Positions 8,482 to 15,126 of a DNA stretch of 64,000 bases are shown in pieces. A program made the position numbers and the translations under genes. The DNA lies in the NCBI RefSeq assembly GCF_000949475.1, contig NZ_JRHC01000005.1, forward strand, positions 310,001 to 374,000, in the 5' to 3' direction. The stretch's first letter is position 1; each line of letters begins with the position of its first letter. Under the pieces are notes generated by a model, which had not been told where the DNA came from, searched no databases, and saw only the letters and a program-made list of their open reading frames with translations. This DNA is from Draconibacterium sediminis. GTDB lineage: Bacteria > Bacteroidota > Bacteroidia > Bacteroidales > Prolixibacteraceae.

Positions 8482-8856
8482 AGTATATAAGTTTTATTGA
8501 TTTGTTTATACTCGTTTTCTTCATCGTTTTGAAGCGAGGTCATCAAAAATAGTAATAATTAATTAACAATCAAGAGGTAAAAATCAGGAGGAAAAAATAT
8601 ATAATCCGGCCCTTGTTTCGGGGCGTTGTTAATATGCATCAATACAGCTTTTTAAGCACTTTTGTTAATAAATGTTATAGTCTGAAATCATTATAAATAA
8701 GGGGGTGTAGCGAATTATCAGAATAGCATAACAAATATGTCAATTAAAAAACATGTGGGCTGTTTTTCCGGGTTTCAGCGCCTTGTAGCTTTGTTAATTA
8801 ATTTAGAACAAATAAAAATTAGTGATTAAAATTCTTTTTTGTCTGAAATTTTCGTT
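8482..8856. other. AT-rich divergent intergenic region
   Basis: This region separates the EF-G2-like gene (minus) from the sulfite-reduction operon (plus) and must hold the promoter for the former. A short low-AT patch sits at 8605-8625. No repeat, hairpin or small gene stands out. Confidence 0.4.
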
Positions 8857-8864
8857 TACATTTG
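8857..8864 (+). promoter_or_regulatory. -7 element of the sulfite-reduction operon
   Basis: TACATTTG is an exact match to the Bacteroidota -7 consensus TAnnTTTG. A TTTG that could serve as the -33 element lies at 8838-8841, but the 15-base spacing is shorter than the usual ~19, so only the -7 call is firm. Transcription would start near 8870, about 64 bases before the leader peptide. Confidence 0.6.
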
Positions 8865-8869
8865 CACTG

Positions 8870-8885
8870 TGTGATATAAGTCACA
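8870..8885. promoter_or_regulatory. Perfect TGTGA-N6-TCACA palindrome at the expected start site
   Basis: The 16 bases form a perfect inverted repeat, TGTGA then six bases then TCACA, identical in form to the Crp/Fnr-family operator consensus. It begins six bases after the -7 element, so a bound protein would block the start site; alternatively it could act as a small hairpin at the 5' end of the RNA. The binding protein is unknown; a Crp/Fnr-type gene at 57969 is only one possibility. Confidence 0.5.
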
Positions 8886-8933
8886 TAGAAATAATTTTAA
8901 AGCGCAATGGTTAATACTTTCTCTAAAATAACA

Positions 8934-8996
8934 ATGATGAAAATGACATGTATGATGTGTATGTGTTGTGATGTTATTGTTGTGCAGAGGAACTGA
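8934..8996 (+). CDS. Met/Cys-rich leader peptide of the sulfite-reduction operon
   Basis: A 20-codon open frame, too short for ordinary ORF listings. It begins MMKMTCMMCMCC, so ten of its first twelve residues are methionine or cysteine (six Met, four Cys), and ends DVIVVQRN before TGA at 8994. It lies between a -7 element and an intrinsic terminator that precede genes for sulfide production, the classic position of an attenuator leader. The inferred role is regulatory: a ribosome stalls on Cys or Met codons when charged tRNA is scarce. An alternative start is the second ATG at 8937. No Shine-Dalgarno sequence is visible, as is usual in this phylum. Confidence 0.7.
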   Translation: MMKMTCMMCMCCDVIVVQRN

Positions 8997-9040
8997 CCAT
9001 AGATTGAAAATATTACTCGATTTGAAAGGCTCTTCTGTAT
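8982..9040 (+). promoter_or_regulatory. Candidate antiterminator helix
   Basis: Bases 8982-8991 (GTGCAGAGGA, the last codons of the leader peptide) can pair with 9031-9040 (TCTTCTGTAT), which contains the left arm of the terminator; seven pairs are Watson-Crick or standard wobble in the core and three more extend it. CAGAGGA mimics the terminator's right arm CAGAAGGG. A ribosome at the stop codon would cover 8985-8991 and favour termination; one stalled at the Cys codons 8964-8969 would leave it free. This is inference from base pairing only. Confidence 0.55.
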
Positions 9041-9062
9041 TTGCAGAAGGGCTTTTTTTTTT
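9025..9062 (+). terminator. Intrinsic terminator / attenuator before the sulfite-reduction genes
   Basis: AAAGGCTCTTCTG pairs with CAGAAGGGCTTT around the loop TATTTG, thirteen pairs with two G-T wobbles, and is followed by a run of at least nine T. It lies 29 bases after the leader-peptide stop codon and 48 bases before the first structural gene, so it can only act on transcripts that would enter the operon. Confidence 0.85.
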
Positions 9063-9109
9063 AGAAAAATTCAGATGACAGAATGATAGTTTAAACAGGG
9101 ATATGGCGT

Positions 9110-9361
9110 ATGGCAAAAGAAAATGGAAATACAGTTGAGAGGAAAAGAAGGAGTATCGTAAAAACGATTTCGTGGCGTACTATTGGCACCATCGATACCA
9201 TTCTGATCTCCTGGTTTGTGGTGGGCGATATAAATTTTGCGGTTACCATTGGCGGTGTCGAGCTGTTTACAAAAATGGCGTTATACTTTTTTCATGAGCG
9301 TGCCTGGAACAAAATCAGCTTCGGAAGGGTTAAACATACACCAATTGAATACGAAATTTAA
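9110..9361 (+). CDS. DUF2061 family small membrane protein
   Basis: An 83-residue protein with a charged N-terminus (KENGNTVERKRR), the family signature SIVKTISWRTIGTIDTILISWFVVGD, a second hydrophobic stretch (INFAVTIGGVELFTKMALYFFHERAW) and the basic tail. This is the DUF2061 family of short inner-membrane proteins with about two membrane spans. Its biochemical role is unknown. Homologues are often placed beside sulfate-assimilation genes in Bacteroidota (general knowledge), and here it is the first gene of the sulfite-reduction operon, six bases before the next start codon. A supporting role in sulfur uptake or sulfite handling is an inference from position only. Confidence 0.85.
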   Translation: MAKENGNTVERKRRSIVKTISWRTIGTIDTILISWFVVGDINFAVTIGGVELFTKMALYFFHERAWNKISFGRVKHTPIEYEI

Positions 9362-9366
9362 ACAGT

Positions 9367-9819
9367 ATGGCAGACAAGAATTTTTTACCAATTGCAATTG
9401 ATATTGCCAACCAGAAAATACTGATTGTTGGTGGCGGACAAAGTGCTTACAGCAAGCTAAAGATCTTGCAGCGCCACAACGCCGAAGTTGAGATACTGGC
9501 CATTGATGTATGCGACGAAATAAAAAACAGCGGGGTGAAATACATTGAAGCACCATACCACAAAAACTATTTAAAAGACTATTTAATGCTTTATTCCTGC
9601 TCGAATAACGAAGAGCTCGACCGGCAAATAGAAAAGGACTGCCGCGAAGAAAAAGTATTAGTTAATATTCATGATAAACCAGATCGCTGTCAGTTTGTTT
9701 CACCTGCTATCTACCGGCATGGAAAAATTTCGGTGGCGGTAAGTTCGAATGGCGAGAATGTTTATGAATCGATTAGAATAAGAAATTTAATAAAAGATAA
9801 GTTGCAACTTGAAGATTGA
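9367..9819 (+). CDS. Precorrin-2 dehydrogenase-like protein (CysG N-terminal domain)
   Basis: A 150-residue protein related to the N-terminal domain of CysG and to yeast Met8p, which oxidise precorrin-2 with NAD+ and insert iron to form siroheme. The N-terminus has LPIAIDIANQKILIVGGGQSAYSKLKIL, a Rossmann G-x-G-x-x-A motif at about residues 20-25, followed by HNAEVEILA. NIHDKPDRCQFVSPAIYRHGKISVAVSSNG matches the conserved substrate region. It is shorter than most family members (about 190-220 residues) and lacks the C-terminal dimerisation part. Within this operon it would supply siroheme to CysI, working after CobA. Whether it does both dehydrogenation and chelation is not shown. Confidence 0.85.
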   Translation: MADKNFLPIAIDIANQKILIVGGGQSAYSKLKILQRHNAEVEILAIDVCDEIKNSGVKYIEAPYHKNYLKDYLMLYSCSNNEELDRQIEKDCREEKVLVNIHDKPDRCQFVSPAIYRHGKISVAVSSNGENVYESIRIRNLIKDKLQLED

Positions 9820-9860: not shown

Positions 9861-11666
9861 ATGAGTTTAAAAGCAAATCCATTAAATGATGCACAGTTAA
9901 GTGCTTTAAGCCAACTGGTTGAAGGCTTGAATAAAGAGCAGACTGTTTGGCTAAATGGTTATTTTGAGGGGCGATTGGCAGCCCTTGGAGGAGTTGAAGT
10001 GCCAGCCGTAGCAGGAACAACTGTAAGTGCAGCTGCTCCGGCACCACAAAGTTCGATTAATCTTACCATTTTGTATGGTACCGAAACCGGACACTCGCAG
10101 GGACTGGCCGAAAAATTGGGAGAGAAAGCCTCGTTTAAAGGAATGAATGTCCAGGTTTTTAGTTTGTACGATTACAATTACAAAAAGCTGCATGAGGAAG
10201 ATAATGTAGCGATAGTTGTTAGTACGCATGGCGAGGGCGACCCGCCGGATATGGCCGAAGATTTTTACAAATATGTAACCGGGCCGCGTGCGCCTCAGCT
10301 CGAGGGCGTAAACTACTCGGTGCTGGCGCTGGGTGATAAAACCTACAAGCATTTTTGTAAAACCGGTGAAGAAATTGATGTGGCTTTAAAAAACCGGGGT
10401 GGTTACCGAATTACGCCAGCCGTAAAATGCGATGTGGATTACGAACAGCCATCAGAAATGTGGATGAACAACTTTTTGCTGAATCTGTCGGCTACTGAAA
10501 CCCCCGAGCCTGTCGCTTCGGGTACATCATCGACACCATCAGGAGGTTTTGGAGAGGAGTTCTCGAAATCAAATCCATATATGGCAACAGTGTTGGAGAA
10601 AGTTCGGATTACCGGAAGCGATTCCGACAAAGAAGTGTACCATGTTGAACTTTCGTTGGAAGGATCGGGACTGGAATACGAACCGGGAGATTCGTTGGGG
10701 ATTTTTACTAAAAACCCTGAAGCCCTGGTAGAAGATATTCTTGCCTTTACCGGTTTCGACCCGCAACAGAAAGTTGATATTGAAGAGGAGGAATACAGTT
10801 TGAAGGAAGCATTGTCGCACCATCTGGAAATTACCTTACTGACTTTCGATCTGCTGACCAAATACCAGGAGAAAACAAAGAATGCCGAACTGGCTAAATT
10901 GCTTGCCGACGATGAGGCGCTCGACAATTATTTATATGGCCACGATGTGCTCGATTTGCTGGAAGATTACCCATACGAATGGAATGCGCATAAACTGGTA
11001 GAAGTTTTACGCCCTATTCCGCCCCGTTTGTATTCTATTTCATCAAGCATGGAAAGTGTGGGCGAAGAGGTTCATGTAACCGTTTCAGTAGTTCGTTACG
11101 AACGTAAGAATCGTAAACGCAACGGAGCATGTTCGTCGCACCTGGCCGATAGCATTGAGATTGATGAGCAGGTACCGGTTTATATCGACAAAAATCCGTC
11201 GTTTAAATTGCCGGCCAACGGATCAAAAATTATCATGGTTGGTGCCGGAACGGGTGTCGCTCCATATCGCGCATTTATGCAGCATCGCGAGAGTCTGGGA
11301 ATTAAAGGCGAGTCGTGGTTGTTTTTTGGCGACCGTCGTTTTAGCTCCGATTTTCTGTATCAAACCGAGTGGCAAAAGCTGTTAAAAAATGAAGTGCTTA
11401 CCAAAATAGATGTTGCTTTTAGTCGCGACCAGGAAGAAAAAGTTTATGTGCAGCACAAACTAAAAGAGCAGCAAAAGGAAGTGTTCGACTGGCTGGAAAA
11501 CGGTGCTCACTTGTATTTGTGTGGCGATATGAAATACATGGCCAAAGATGTAAACAAGGCTTTGCTTGATATTATTCAAACTCAGGGTGGAATCAGCGAG
11601 GAACAAGCCGAAAAATATGTGAAAAATTTGAAACGTGAGAAGCGTTTCCAAACCGATGTTTATTAG
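9861..11666 (+). CDS. cysJ: Assimilatory sulfite reductase (NADPH) flavoprotein subunit
   Basis: A 601-residue diflavin reductase that passes electrons from NADPH through FAD and FMN to the CysI hemoprotein. An FMN-binding flavodoxin domain spans about residues 65-210 (LYGTETGHSQGLAEKLG, STHGEGDPPDMAEDF, LALGDKTYKHFC). An FAD domain follows (PPRLYSISSS at about 388-397, GACSSHLAD). The NADPH-binding end has GAGTGVAPYRAFMQHRE and YLCGDMKYMAKDV, and the protein ends in the family's aromatic terminus (FQTDVY). Length and order match E. coli CysJ. It lies 41 bases after the siroheme gene and is followed by a 146-base gap with a hairpin before cysI. Confidence 0.97.
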   Translation: MSLKANPLNDAQLSALSQLVEGLNKEQTVWLNGYFEGRLAALGGVEVPAVAGTTVSAAAPAPQSSINLTILYGTETGHSQGLAEKLGEKASFKGMNVQVFSLYDYNYKKLHEEDNVAIVVSTHGEGDPPDMAEDFYKYVTGPRAPQLEGVNYSVLALGDKTYKHFCKTGEEIDVALKNRGGYRITPAVKCDVDYEQPSEMWMNNFLLNLSATETPEPVASGTSSTPSGGFGEEFSKSNPYMATVLEKVRITGSDSDKEVYHVELSLEGSGLEYEPGDSLGIFTKNPEALVEDILAFTGFDPQQKVDIEEEEYSLKEALSHHLEITLLTFDLLTKYQEKTKNAELAKLLADDEALDNYLYGHDVLDLLEDYPYEWNAHKLVEVLRPIPPRLYSISSSMESVGEEVHVTVSVVRYERKNRKRNGACSSHLADSIEIDEQVPVYIDKNPSFKLPANGSKIIMVGAGTGVAPYRAFMQHRESLGIKGESWLFFGDRRFSSDFLYQTEWQKLLKNEVLTKIDVAFSRDQEEKVYVQHKLKEQQKEVFDWLENGAHLYLCGDMKYMAKDVNKALLDIIQTQGGISEEQAEKYVKNLKREKRFQTDVY

Positions 11667-11812: not shown

Positions 11813-13513
11813 ATGAGTGAAAATATTAACTGGCAGGAGCTTTCAGAAGTTGAAAAGCTCAAATACGATAGTAACTATTTACGGGGAACCTTAACCGAAA
11901 GTCTGGCCGACCCGATTACTGGGGCCATATCGGATGGAGATACGCAAATCTCGAAATTCCATGGTATTTATCAGCAGTGGGACCGCGATATTGACAAAGA
12001 GCGAAAGCGACAAAAACTGGAACCTGCCTTTTCATTTTTGATACGGTTGCGTATGCCCGGCGGAAGATTTACGCCAGGGCAATGGCTGGCAATGGACGAG
12101 TTGTCGGAAAAATATGCCAATGGTACGTTGAAATTGACAACAAGGCAAACATTTCAGTTGCACGGTGTGCTGAAGCGCAATCTGAAGGCCACCATTAAAG
12201 AAATGAACGACCATTTGATGGACACCATAGCTGCGTGTGGCGATGTAAACCGTAACGTAATGAGCCATGCCAATCCGGCGCAGTCATCGTTTCATGCTGA
12301 AGTGATTGAGACAGCTAAAAATATCAGCGAGCATCTTTTGCCCAAAACAGGTGCTTACCACGAAATCTGGTTGGATAAAAAACTGGTGGCCGACAGTAAA
12401 GAGGAAGTGGAACCGTTGTACGGAAACCGTTACCTGCCACGAAAATTTAAAATCGGGATTGTAATTCCACCACATAATGATTGTGATGTTTTTTCGCAGG
12501 ATTTGGGTTTTATTGCCATTGTTGAAAACGACAAAATTGTTGGCTACAATGTTGCTGTTGGCGGTGGTTTGGGAACTACATTCGGGAAACCCGAAACTTA
12601 TCCGAGAACCGGAACTGTAATTGGTTTTTGTACCCCAGATCAAATTATTGATGTTGCAGAGAAAGTGGTGCTGGTACAACGTGATAACGGTAACCGAAAA
12701 GACAGGAAACAGGCCCGTTTAAAATACACCATCGACAGAATGGGAGTGGAAGAATTCGTGGCAGAACTGACAAAATATTTGGGATATGAACTGGAGCCGG
12801 AACGCGAATACGTTTTAGACCGAAACGGAGATGATTTTGGCTGGATAAAAGGCAGCGACAAAAAGTGGCACCTCACATATTTTGTAGAAGGCGGCCGCGT
12901 GCTTGACCGGGGAGAATACAAACTGAAAACTGCTCTTCGTGAGATATCAAAAGTGATCGACGGTGATATTATCTTAACCGGAAATCAGAACCTGATCATC
13001 TCGGGAGTGAGCACAAAAGTGAAAAACAAGGTGGATGCCTTGCTGAAGACTTATGGTGTATCTCCTGAAGATATCTCCGGCTTGCGAAAAAATTCAATTG
13101 CATGTGTGGCTTTGCCAACCTGCCCTCTGGCTTTTGCCGAAGCCGAACGTTACCTGCCTGATTTGGTATCGAAAATTGAAGCGATTCTGAATGAACACGA
13201 GCTGGGCAAGGAAGAAATTGTAATTCGTATGACCGGCTGCCCCAATGGTTGCGGGCGTCCTTATCTGGCCGAAATTGGCCTGATCGGTAAATCGCCTGGC
13301 TATTACAATTTATACCTTGGTGGAAGTTTTAACGGATCGCGTTTGAACACGCTCTACAAACAAACCATCAACGAGGAAGAGATACTGAACGAGCTACGTC
13401 CGATTATTGCTGATTTTGCAGCAAACCGCAAGGACGGCGAGCATTTTGGCGACTTTGTTATCCGCAATAATTACGTGGAGGAAATTAAAGAAGGCAAGGA
13501 TTTTAAACACTAA
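11813..13513 (+). CDS. cysI: Assimilatory sulfite reductase hemoprotein subunit
   Basis: A 566-residue siroheme/[4Fe-4S] enzyme that reduces sulfite to sulfide with six electrons delivered by CysJ. The cluster-binding cysteines are seen as C-x5-C in CVALPTC (about residues 430-436) and C-x3-C in [10 protein letters not shown] (about 473-480). Siroheme and sulfite contacts of the family are present: [24 protein letters not shown] and GDVNRNVM. Two ferredoxin-like half-repeats give the normal CysI length. The start ATG at 11813 follows the AACCCAAAAATT leader. It belongs with cysJ, the siroheme genes and the upstream leader-peptide attenuator. The C-terminus [18 protein letters not shown] is slightly longer than some homologues. 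Confidence 0.97.
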
Positions 13514-13558: not shown

Positions 13559-14398
13559 ATGAGAACAACAGTATCGATATTAGGTTGCGGATGGCTTGGA
13601 ACAGCGTTGGGAAGATCATTGCTCCGAAAAGGCTGGAAAGTTAAAGGATCGGTGGCGTCAACGCAAAGTTACAACAGGCTTGAGGTAAGTGGAATTAGTG
13701 CATTTTATGTGAAAGCCAAAGCGCAATCGCTGACGGTGGATTACAATAGTTTTTTCAATACCGATGTGCTTATTATCAGCATTCCGCCAACGCGAACAGA
13801 TTGTGTGGAGGACTCATACCCAAAGAAAATTGAGCAGGTGATTGCCAAAGTTGAGGAGCTGAACATTAAAAAAGTTCTTTTTATTTCTTCAACGTCTGTG
13901 TACGAATCGAAAAATGCAGAAGTAAAAGAAGGCGATGAGGGAACGCCGGAAAAAGCCAGTGGGCGAGCATTGTTAAAAGCGGAAAAACTGTTGCTGGATA
14001 ATCCGGCATTTCAAACTACGGTAATTCGTTTCGGTGGTTTGATCGGATACGATCGCAATCCGGCACGTTTTGTACAAGGCAAAAATACACCGGTTTTTGA
14101 TGCACCTGTTAATTTGATTCACCGCGACGATTGCATAAATATCATCACTCAAATTATTGAAAAAAATATTTGGGGCGAGGTGTTCAATGCATCGAGCCCT
14201 GAGCATCCCGGACGTAATGAGTTTTATGCAAAAGCTGCAAAAATCAGTGATATGCCAATTCCGGTGTTTTCAAAAGACAAAGGAAGTTACAAGGTGATTA
14301 ACAGCGACAAACTTATTGAGGCGTTGGATTTTAAGTTCGCGTATCAAAGTCCGATGGACTACTTAAAAGAAGTGGAAGAGTGGGCCTACAGAATTTAG
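13559..14398 (+). CDS. NAD(P)-dependent epimerase/dehydrogenase (YeeZ-like)
   Basis: A 279-residue extended short-chain dehydrogenase-like protein. The N-terminus STVSILGCGWLGTALGRSLL-type pattern (here TVSILGCGWLGTALG) is the dinucleotide-binding motif; FISSTSVYES and the following region match the catalytic SSTSVYG stretch of the YeeZ group, although the usual YxxxK is not evident. LIHRDDCINII matches the substrate-domain signature. The substrate is unknown. Its place between cysI and cobA, 45 bases after cysI and 2 bases before the cobA start, suggests cotranscription; a link to siroheme or sulfur metabolism rests on position alone. Confidence 0.8.
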   Translation: MRTTVSILGCGWLGTALGRSLLRKGWKVKGSVASTQSYNRLEVSGISAFYVKAKAQSLTVDYNSFFNTDVLIISIPPTRTDCVEDSYPKKIEQVIAKVEELNIKKVLFISSTSVYESKNAEVKEGDEGTPEKASGRALLKAEKLLLDNPAFQTTVIRFGGLIGYDRNPARFVQGKNTPVFDAPVNLIHRDDCINIITQIIEKNIWGEVFNASSPEHPGRNEFYAKAAKISDMPIPVFSKDKGSYKVINSDKLIEALDFKFAYQSPMDYLKEVEEWAYRI

Positions 14399-14400
14399 CA

Positions 14401-15126
14401 ATGGAACAGTTGGGAAAAGTTTATATTGTAGGAGCGGGCCCCGGACCGGCAGATTTACTCACTGTGAAAGCGCACGATTGTATTAAAGAGGCAGATGTGA
14501 TTTTATACGATGCCTTGATTTCGCGCGATGTTCGGACGCTTTTCCCGGAGAATGCAGAACTTATTTTTGTGGGTAAACGTGCCGGCGATGGCGTTGATGT
14601 AACGGAGCGGCAAAACTCCATCCACCACAAAATTGAAAAGCACGCAAAACAGGGGAAAGTGGTGGTGCGTGTGAAATCGGGAGATCCAATGATTTTTAGC
14701 CGGGGAGCGGAAGAAACCTCGTATCTGCAGGAAAAGAATATTCCTTTTGAAGTGGTACCGGGCATTTCGGCGTTTAATGCGGCGTCGGCAGAATTTGGCA
14801 TTCCGTTAACCGACCGGCGGGGAAGCAACTCGCTGCACCTGCTTTCGGGGCGCGATGTGGCCGGGAAATTACTCAGCGTAAAACAGTTGGTAAGTATTCT
14901 GGAAAACCGCGGAACCGCTGTGATTTACATGGGCACGAAAGTACTGGAGGAAATCTACGAAGCACTGGATGTCGTTCACCGCGAGTGTATTCAGGCAACG
15001 ATTGTGTCGCGTTCCGGCCGTTGGGATGCACAAAAGTTTAAAGGAACATTGCAGGAGATGGTTTCTTTGAATAGTGAAACACCTGTAAAAACTCCTGCTT
15101 TGATTTATCTGAGAATGGAGTGTTGA
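14401..15126 (+). CDS. cobA: Uroporphyrinogen-III C-methyltransferase
   Basis: A 241-residue SAM-dependent enzyme that methylates uroporphyrinogen III at C2 and C7 to give precorrin-2, the entry to siroheme. The family motifs are visible: VYIVGAGPGPADLLTVKA (about residues 7-24), VRVKSGDPMIFSRGAEE, FEVVPGISAFNAASAEFGIPLTDR and TAVIYMGTKVLEEI. The start at 14401 was chosen over an in-frame ATG at 14380 because it gives the standard N-terminus and avoids overlap with the upstream gene. It is the last gene of the operon. It competes with the heme genes of the adjacent minus-strand operon for uroporphyrinogen III. Confidence 0.96.
   Translation: MEQLGKVYIVGAGPGPADLLTVKAHDCIKEADVILYDALISRDVRTLFPENAELIFVGKRAGDGVDVTERQNSIHHKIEKHAKQGKVVVRVKSGDPMIFSRGAEETSYLQEKNIPFEVVPGISAFNAASAEFGIPLTDRRGSNSLHLLSGRDVAGKLLSVKQLVSILENRGTAVIYMGTKVLEEIYEALDVVHRECIQATIVSRSGRWDAQKFKGTLQEMVSLNSETPVKTPALIYLRMEC

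Follow-up and report, generated by a model that had tools for sequence, protein, structure and literature searches.

The window analyzed here, a 64,000-nucleotide stretch of DNA, carries a sulfite-reduction/siroheme operon with a short reading frame dense in Met and Cys codons just upstream. We asked whether this frame is a leader peptide through which ribosomes control entry into the operon and, if so, whether Cys alone or both sulfur amino acids are read. On balance, we favor transcription attenuation of the trp type, governed by the ribosome and responsive to the supply of charged Cys-tRNA and, probably, of charged Met-tRNA.

The operon begins with a gene for a DUF2061 membrane protein (9110 to 9361; PF09834, E 8e-22), one nucleotide later than the start at 9109 given in the initial annotation. 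It is followed on the same, plus strand by genes for a siroheme-synthase-like NAD(P)-binding protein (9367 to 9819; PF13241 NAD_binding_7), a CysJ-like sulfite reductase flavoprotein (9861 to 11666; PF00258, PF00667, PF00175), a CysI-like sulfite reductase hemoprotein (NIR_SIR; 11813 to 13513; PF01077, PF03460), an NAD(P)-binding protein (13559 to 14398; PF13460 NAD_binding_10, at a subthreshold 22.4 of 27.2 bits), and a tetrapyrrole methylase resembling uroporphyrinogen-III methyltransferase (14380 to 15126; PF00590 TP_methylase).

A conserved Met/Cys-rich leader ORF precedes the operon

The initial annotation had described a 20-codon frame at 8934 to 8996 (MMKMTCMMCMCCDVIVVQRN, then stop), with Met or Cys at 10 of the first 12 positions. 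This richness held up: the frame is extreme among the 819 ATG-started frames of 10 to 60 amino acids in the window, with nine Met/Cys in the 11 residues past its start and five in the next independent frame. The start codon did not hold up, because N-terminal codons conserved in relatives place it at the ATG at 8907. The plus-strand leader ORF is therefore 29 codons long (8907 to 8996; MVNTFSKITMMKMTCMMCMCCDVIVVQRN, then stop), and both its start region and its Met/Cys core are conserved in relatives. The putative sensor codons are codons 13 to 21, Met-Thr-Cys-Met-Met-Cys-Met-Cys-Cys (8943 to 8969). The last Cys lies 24 nt before the stop codon, which occupies 8994 to 8996 and adjoins arm 2 of the RNA structure described below.

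Relatives were searched, blind to the leader, with the DUF2061 protein, which matched in 26 of 61. This gave 24 orthologous loci from 37 same-genus genomes, the other 13 having no DUF2061 match; the DUF2061 protein of the closest relative is 99% identical. The leader was present at all 24 orthologous loci, so the Met/Cys codons are conserved in close relatives, as the check proposed in the initial annotation had asked. Constant throughout are the motif [CY]MCC, its spacing of exactly 14 nt to arm 2, a palindrome pattern, and a TAnnTTTG element. The codons between the Cys core and arm 2 are variable. Across 72 core Cys positions, the codon is TGT in 63, TGC in 8, and TAT in 1; the leader of L014 has Tyr for one core Cys, an extra Cys beside the core, and its Met codons retained. 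A chance origin of the frame is ruled out by its extreme rank among the 819 window frames together with this conservation.

We found no convincing Met/Cys leader at a DUF2061 locus from another family (L025) or around the cysC/DUF2061-paralogue loci L064 to L066. Among the ORFs listed at L123 (Mariniphaga) and L139 (Tangfeifania), none that lies between the leader and the siroheme/cysJ-like genes resembles DUF2061, and the leader is therefore independent of DUF2061.

The TAnnTTTG element reported upstream is indeed there, as TACATTTG at 8857 to 8864. We take it to be a Bacteroidota-type promoter motif; with a tentative upstream TTTG (8838 to 8841), the candidate plus-strand promoter would span 8838 to 8864. 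The element lies at most 110 nt upstream of the leader start at all 24 genus loci. Directly downstream is a plus-strand palindrome, TGTGATATAAGTCACA (8870 to 8885), with a relaxed GTGA-N6-TCA(C/T) match at all 24; in the loci whose listing includes the true promoter copy, the palindrome lies 11 to 14 nt past the start of TAnnTTTG. In our view it resembles a CRP/FNR-family operator, and it looks like either such an operator or a 5'-end hairpin. It is perhaps a second control layer.

Predicted RNA folds fit ribosome-controlled attenuation

A strong terminator had been claimed at 9025 to 9062. We recovered it on the plus strand at 9024 to 9062, with a stem of 15 pairs at 9024 to 9057 and a T-run to 9062 (dG −19.2). 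The alternative helix proposed between 8982 to 8991 and 9031 to 9040 also proved sound. Its core pairs arm 2 (GCAGAGGA, 8984 to 8991, overlapping the end of the leader ORF) with arm 3 (UCUUCUGU, 9031 to 9038), both on the plus strand, and the wider version adds two flanking pairs. Arm 3 can partner either arm 2, forming an antiterminator, or the 3' arm of the terminator, and the two folds are, as modeled, mutually exclusive.

For the window, 3.3% of 300 dinucleotide shuffles reached the energy of the antiterminator duplex. The helix was found at all 24 genus loci, its eight core pairs being paired in 192 of 192 cells of the alignment (slid controls, 48 to 65%), with AU/GC exchanges at one position (7 cells). 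The terminator is paired in 98.1% of cells (slid controls, 46 to 63%) and shows no covariation beyond shuffles, its 2 double-change cells being reached by 254 of 500.

A further element, absent from the initial annotation, is arm 1 (UUUCUCU, plus strand, 8918 to 8924), which sits in codons 4 to 6, can pair with 8986 to 8992, and by fold prediction would bind arm 2 in a leader that is not being translated. Untranslated, 8907 to 9003 is predicted to form one hairpin (−30.1 kcal/mol; z −5.55; none of 200 shuffles as good). The hairpin z ranges from −1.3 to −7.3 across the 24 genus leaders and from +0.1 to −4.8 in 19 other leaders, in many of which it is weak. Helix 1:2 is paired in 91.1% of cells of the genus alignment (slid controls, 53 to 76%), and its last pair is missing in 10 of the 24 rows. 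Covariation does not single it out, because the register slid by +1 has nine double-change cells and the real helix six. Tested as an isolated duplex, it gave a p of 0.447 in the window and a p of <0.05 in 11 of 23 leaders; in L015, as in the window, the test settles on arms other than these. In a 22-row consensus fold of the genus (L023 and L024, which have insertions, were left out), an apical stem of nine pairs is built from the Met/Cys codons. Covariation of codons 22 to 26 with codons 8 to 12 was considered and rejected, as the consensus fold gives it no support.

These arms suggest how the switch might operate. With Cys and Met plentiful, the ribosome would reach the stop codon and cover arm 2, and the terminator would form. 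With Cys or Met short, the ribosome would stall on the Met/Cys codons and leave arm 2 free; arm 2 would then pair with arm 3 once the latter was transcribed, and RNA polymerase would enter the sulfite-reduction/siroheme operon. If the leader were not translated at all, arms 1 and 2 would be held together in the one long hairpin and the terminator would form again. That the ribosome stalls, what it responds to, and which way the operon is switched are what we infer here, namely, that low Cys or Met charging would turn the operon on.

Folding with a masked ribosome, for which we assumed a footprint of 13 nt from the first A-site base, gave results consistent with this scheme. With the mask at Cys15, Cys18, Cys20, or Cys21 or at Met13 or Met19, arm 2 pairs with arm 3 as soon as the latter has emerged; with the ribosome at the stop codon, the terminator is the first structure to form. 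The spacing, earlier judged to fit ribosome-controlled attenuation, thus does so in the masking model. As read from the alignments, codons, spacing, and pairing are all conserved, and we consider it very probable that the leader is a ribosome-controlled attenuator.

Leaders of the same layout precede other sulfur genes

Leaders that differ in sequence but have the same layout stand before MetY, cysH, and rhodanese-sulfite reductase genes and, in the genome that contains the window, before an OsmC gene (OsmC, cysH on L185, and rhodanese on L102 were named by Pfam, and the sulfite-reductase-like and MetY-like genes from sequence alone). The own-genome OsmC leader, MNKSLSIANNIMCMCCCMFSKHVEGDTMR (L052/L061; G000:C12 near 185588, minus strand), has its own arms and terminator and lies directly before OsmC. 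The own-genome MetY and cysH genes have no convincing Met/Cys leader.

We found the pattern ATGTGYATGTGYTGY at 49 places, spread over 45 of the 395 phylum genomes, and at 9 in the backward control; TGYATGTGYTGY, a short pattern, gave too much noise to serve as a search. Judged by eye, 19 of the 49 are leaders followed by a terminator (L114 being doubtful), 3 are MCMCC-stop peptides before TonB-receptor-like genes (L071, L078, and L079), 2 are similar peptides (L073 and L074), and the remaining 25 are chance-like or were left unjudged. The antiterminator outperformed shuffles (P < 0.05) in 21 of 23 leaders, of which 7 come from the genus and several are near-identical; L085 and L114 fail. Of 26 named loci recovered with the CMMCMCC pattern, 13 belong to Draconibacterium, Maribellus, Mariniphaga, Tangfeifania, and one other member of the Prolixibacteraceae. 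The rest fell in Balneolaceae (6), Flavobacterium (4), Saprospiraceae (1), a Bacteroidetes MAG (1), and an Anaerolineae MAG (1; L130, rejected as a true leader because it was judged chance-like).

Two sets were assembled by enzyme. The MetY search in Balneolaceae matched 52 of 58 genomes, and 25 of 30 inspected loci had a Met/Cys leader. A filter for ATG frames whose first two residues were MK, MN, or ML and that had three or more Cys within eight residues dropped L143 and kept 24 leaders (23 distinct), 17 of which had an antiterminator with a p of <0.05 against shuffles. The cysH search matched 39 of 198 genomes, with Cys-rich leaders at 7 of the 30 loci inspected. On L185 (697 to 1060), two tandem Met/Cys leaders, each followed by a terminator-like hairpin, stand before a cysH-cysD-...-cysJI cluster. 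These similar leaders with terminators, together with the codons and helix conserved at the 24 genus loci, argue for the attenuation reading put forward at the outset. To the initial annotation we add that the ORF is longer, that a fourth arm may exist, and that such leaders are more widely distributed.

Peptides of a related kind were also seen elsewhere. In Flavobacterium (L122, L136, and L138) and at L071, L078, and L079, MCMCC-stop peptides lie shortly before TonB-receptor-like genes, with no obvious terminator, and at L136 a gene resembling Rrf2-type regulators is just upstream of the peptide. A KCMMCMCCCC-stop peptide in a Bacteroidetes MAG (L140) lies about 210 nt before a redoxin-like gene, again with no obvious terminator. 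The TonB-receptor-, Rrf2-, and redoxin-like genes were named from their sequences only.

We give an even chance to the broader proposal that these loci belong to a Bacteroidota-wide sulfur regulon of ribosome attenuators reading Met and Cys charging jointly, with composition kept rather than sequence. Its proposed members would be sulfite reduction in Draconibacterium and relatives, MetY in Balneolaceae and Saprospiraceae, rhodanese/sulfite reductase, cysH-cysJI (once in tandem), and OsmC; the regulon possibly includes a terminator-less form before the Flavobacterium TonB-receptor genes.

Cys is common to the leaders, with Met a frequent partner

The initial annotation had proposed a combined Met and Cys sensor. 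Around the Cys cluster of the MetY leaders, which were chosen on Cys density, Met makes up 74 of 186 non-Cys residues, compared with 34 of 1,287 in control ORFs, a contrast that is somewhat overstated since the 168 Cys-rich control ORFs had MCMCC-like motifs excluded in part and are biased to low Met. Strong enrichment of Met thus speaks for the proposal, but Met is not universal: in other families, some cysH leaders (L184/L188, L206, L208, and L210 to L212) have Cys as their sole or predominant sulfur amino acid. Cys is therefore the common denominator of the leaders, with Met a frequent partner. The cysH leaders of L206, L208, L210, L211, and L212 have a Cys-dense tail with up to seven Cys codons (MTPIKQHHSSIASNRMMCCCCCCC). 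No intrinsic terminator was seen by eye in L188 or L210.

The Cys-only cysH leaders invite the explanation that the same switch reads only Cys codons, Met being kept by the apical-stem structure, by descent, or because AUG is cheap beside UGU. The conserved apical stem formed by the Met/Cys codons in the genus points the same way and could explain part of the Met conservation there. Against this, the Met-enriched MetY leaders vary in residue order from species to species and mostly have weak hairpins, and the L014 leader lost a core Cys yet kept its Met codons. We regard reading of Cys alone as rather unlikely and think it probable that Met is read as well as Cys.

The leader peptide, rich in thiol and thioether and with a core conserved at all 24 genus loci, might instead act as a nascent chain that stalls the ribosome, as arrest peptides do, on binding a metal or on reaction with an oxidant or sulfide. 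Peptide order and length differ widely between families while composition stays, poly-Cys versions exist, and the neighboring genes are those of sulfur assimilation, all of which make a nascent-peptide sensor very improbable. Least credible is control by the RNA itself, as a riboswitch or a protein-binding leader with the ORF a bystander, as the stable leader hairpin and conserved 5'-end palindrome might suggest, since the coding composition recurs with different RNA sequences and the 64-kb window has no Rfam match at gathering score (riboswitch, T-box, and leader families included), the best hit within 8750 to 9120 having an E value of 0.06, far under the cutoff.

If attenuation by both amino acids is correct, the leader would be a two-amino-acid sensor of reduced sulfur, and such leaders would keep amino acid composition over sequence. 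Members of a large phylum would tie sulfide production and sulfur amino acid synthesis to translation itself, and a Met/Cys leader with antiterminator and terminator would be a readable signature for finding the sulfur regulon.

Comparison with known systems

Ribosome-mediated attenuators of the trp type are a classical means of controlling amino acid operons. The arrangement described here is like them in its leader ORF with end-product codons, its competing antiterminator and terminator, and its stop codon adjoining arm 2. It differs in its mixed Met and Cys codons, its sulfite-reduction operon, its occurrence in Bacteroidota, and the apical position of the sensor codons in the 1:2 hairpin. 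Canestrari et al. reportedly described Cys-codon leader ORFs of Mycobacterium in 2020, and a survey of attenuation by Lopatovskaya and colleagues, said to date from 2010, may overlap with the Met/Cys leaders.

Classical attenuators of amino acid operons have Actinobacterial examples, and Cys-codon-rich short ORFs stand before cys operons in Mycobacterium and other Actinobacteria (PMC1262725). As described there, the Actinobacterial Cys leaders have Cys runs near the stop codon and no conserved terminator hairpin. Ours shares with them a Cys-codon-rich short ORF upstream of a cys operon but has Met mixed in, its last Cys well before the stop, and a conserved terminator and antiterminator. For uORFC-8-2 before cysS in Rhodobacterales, which has tandem Cys codons and an intrinsic terminator, attenuation mediated by the ribosome has been proposed; that alphaproteobacterial leader has Cys codons and a terminator in common with ours but differs in its two Cys codons and its cysS target (PMC8632094).

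Within Bacteroidota, leader-peptide attenuators have been suggested before amino acid operons of Flavobacterium psychrophilum (PMC9723704), and short ORFs occur in long 5' untranslated regions of Bacteroides thetaiotaomicron (PMC7366714); the accessible portions of these two articles name no Cys, Met, or sulfite-reduction case. The accessible portions of PMC2965389, PMC4833913, PMC6429828, and PMC13236596 yielded no Met/Cys attenuator of Bacteroidota, and our search, limited to open-license literature, found no description of a Met/Cys sensor on sulfite reduction. The mechanism is a classic one; what is new, as far as that literature shows, is a Met/Cys sensor before sulfite-reduction genes, and one switch reading two amino acids for one element would be an unusual logic.
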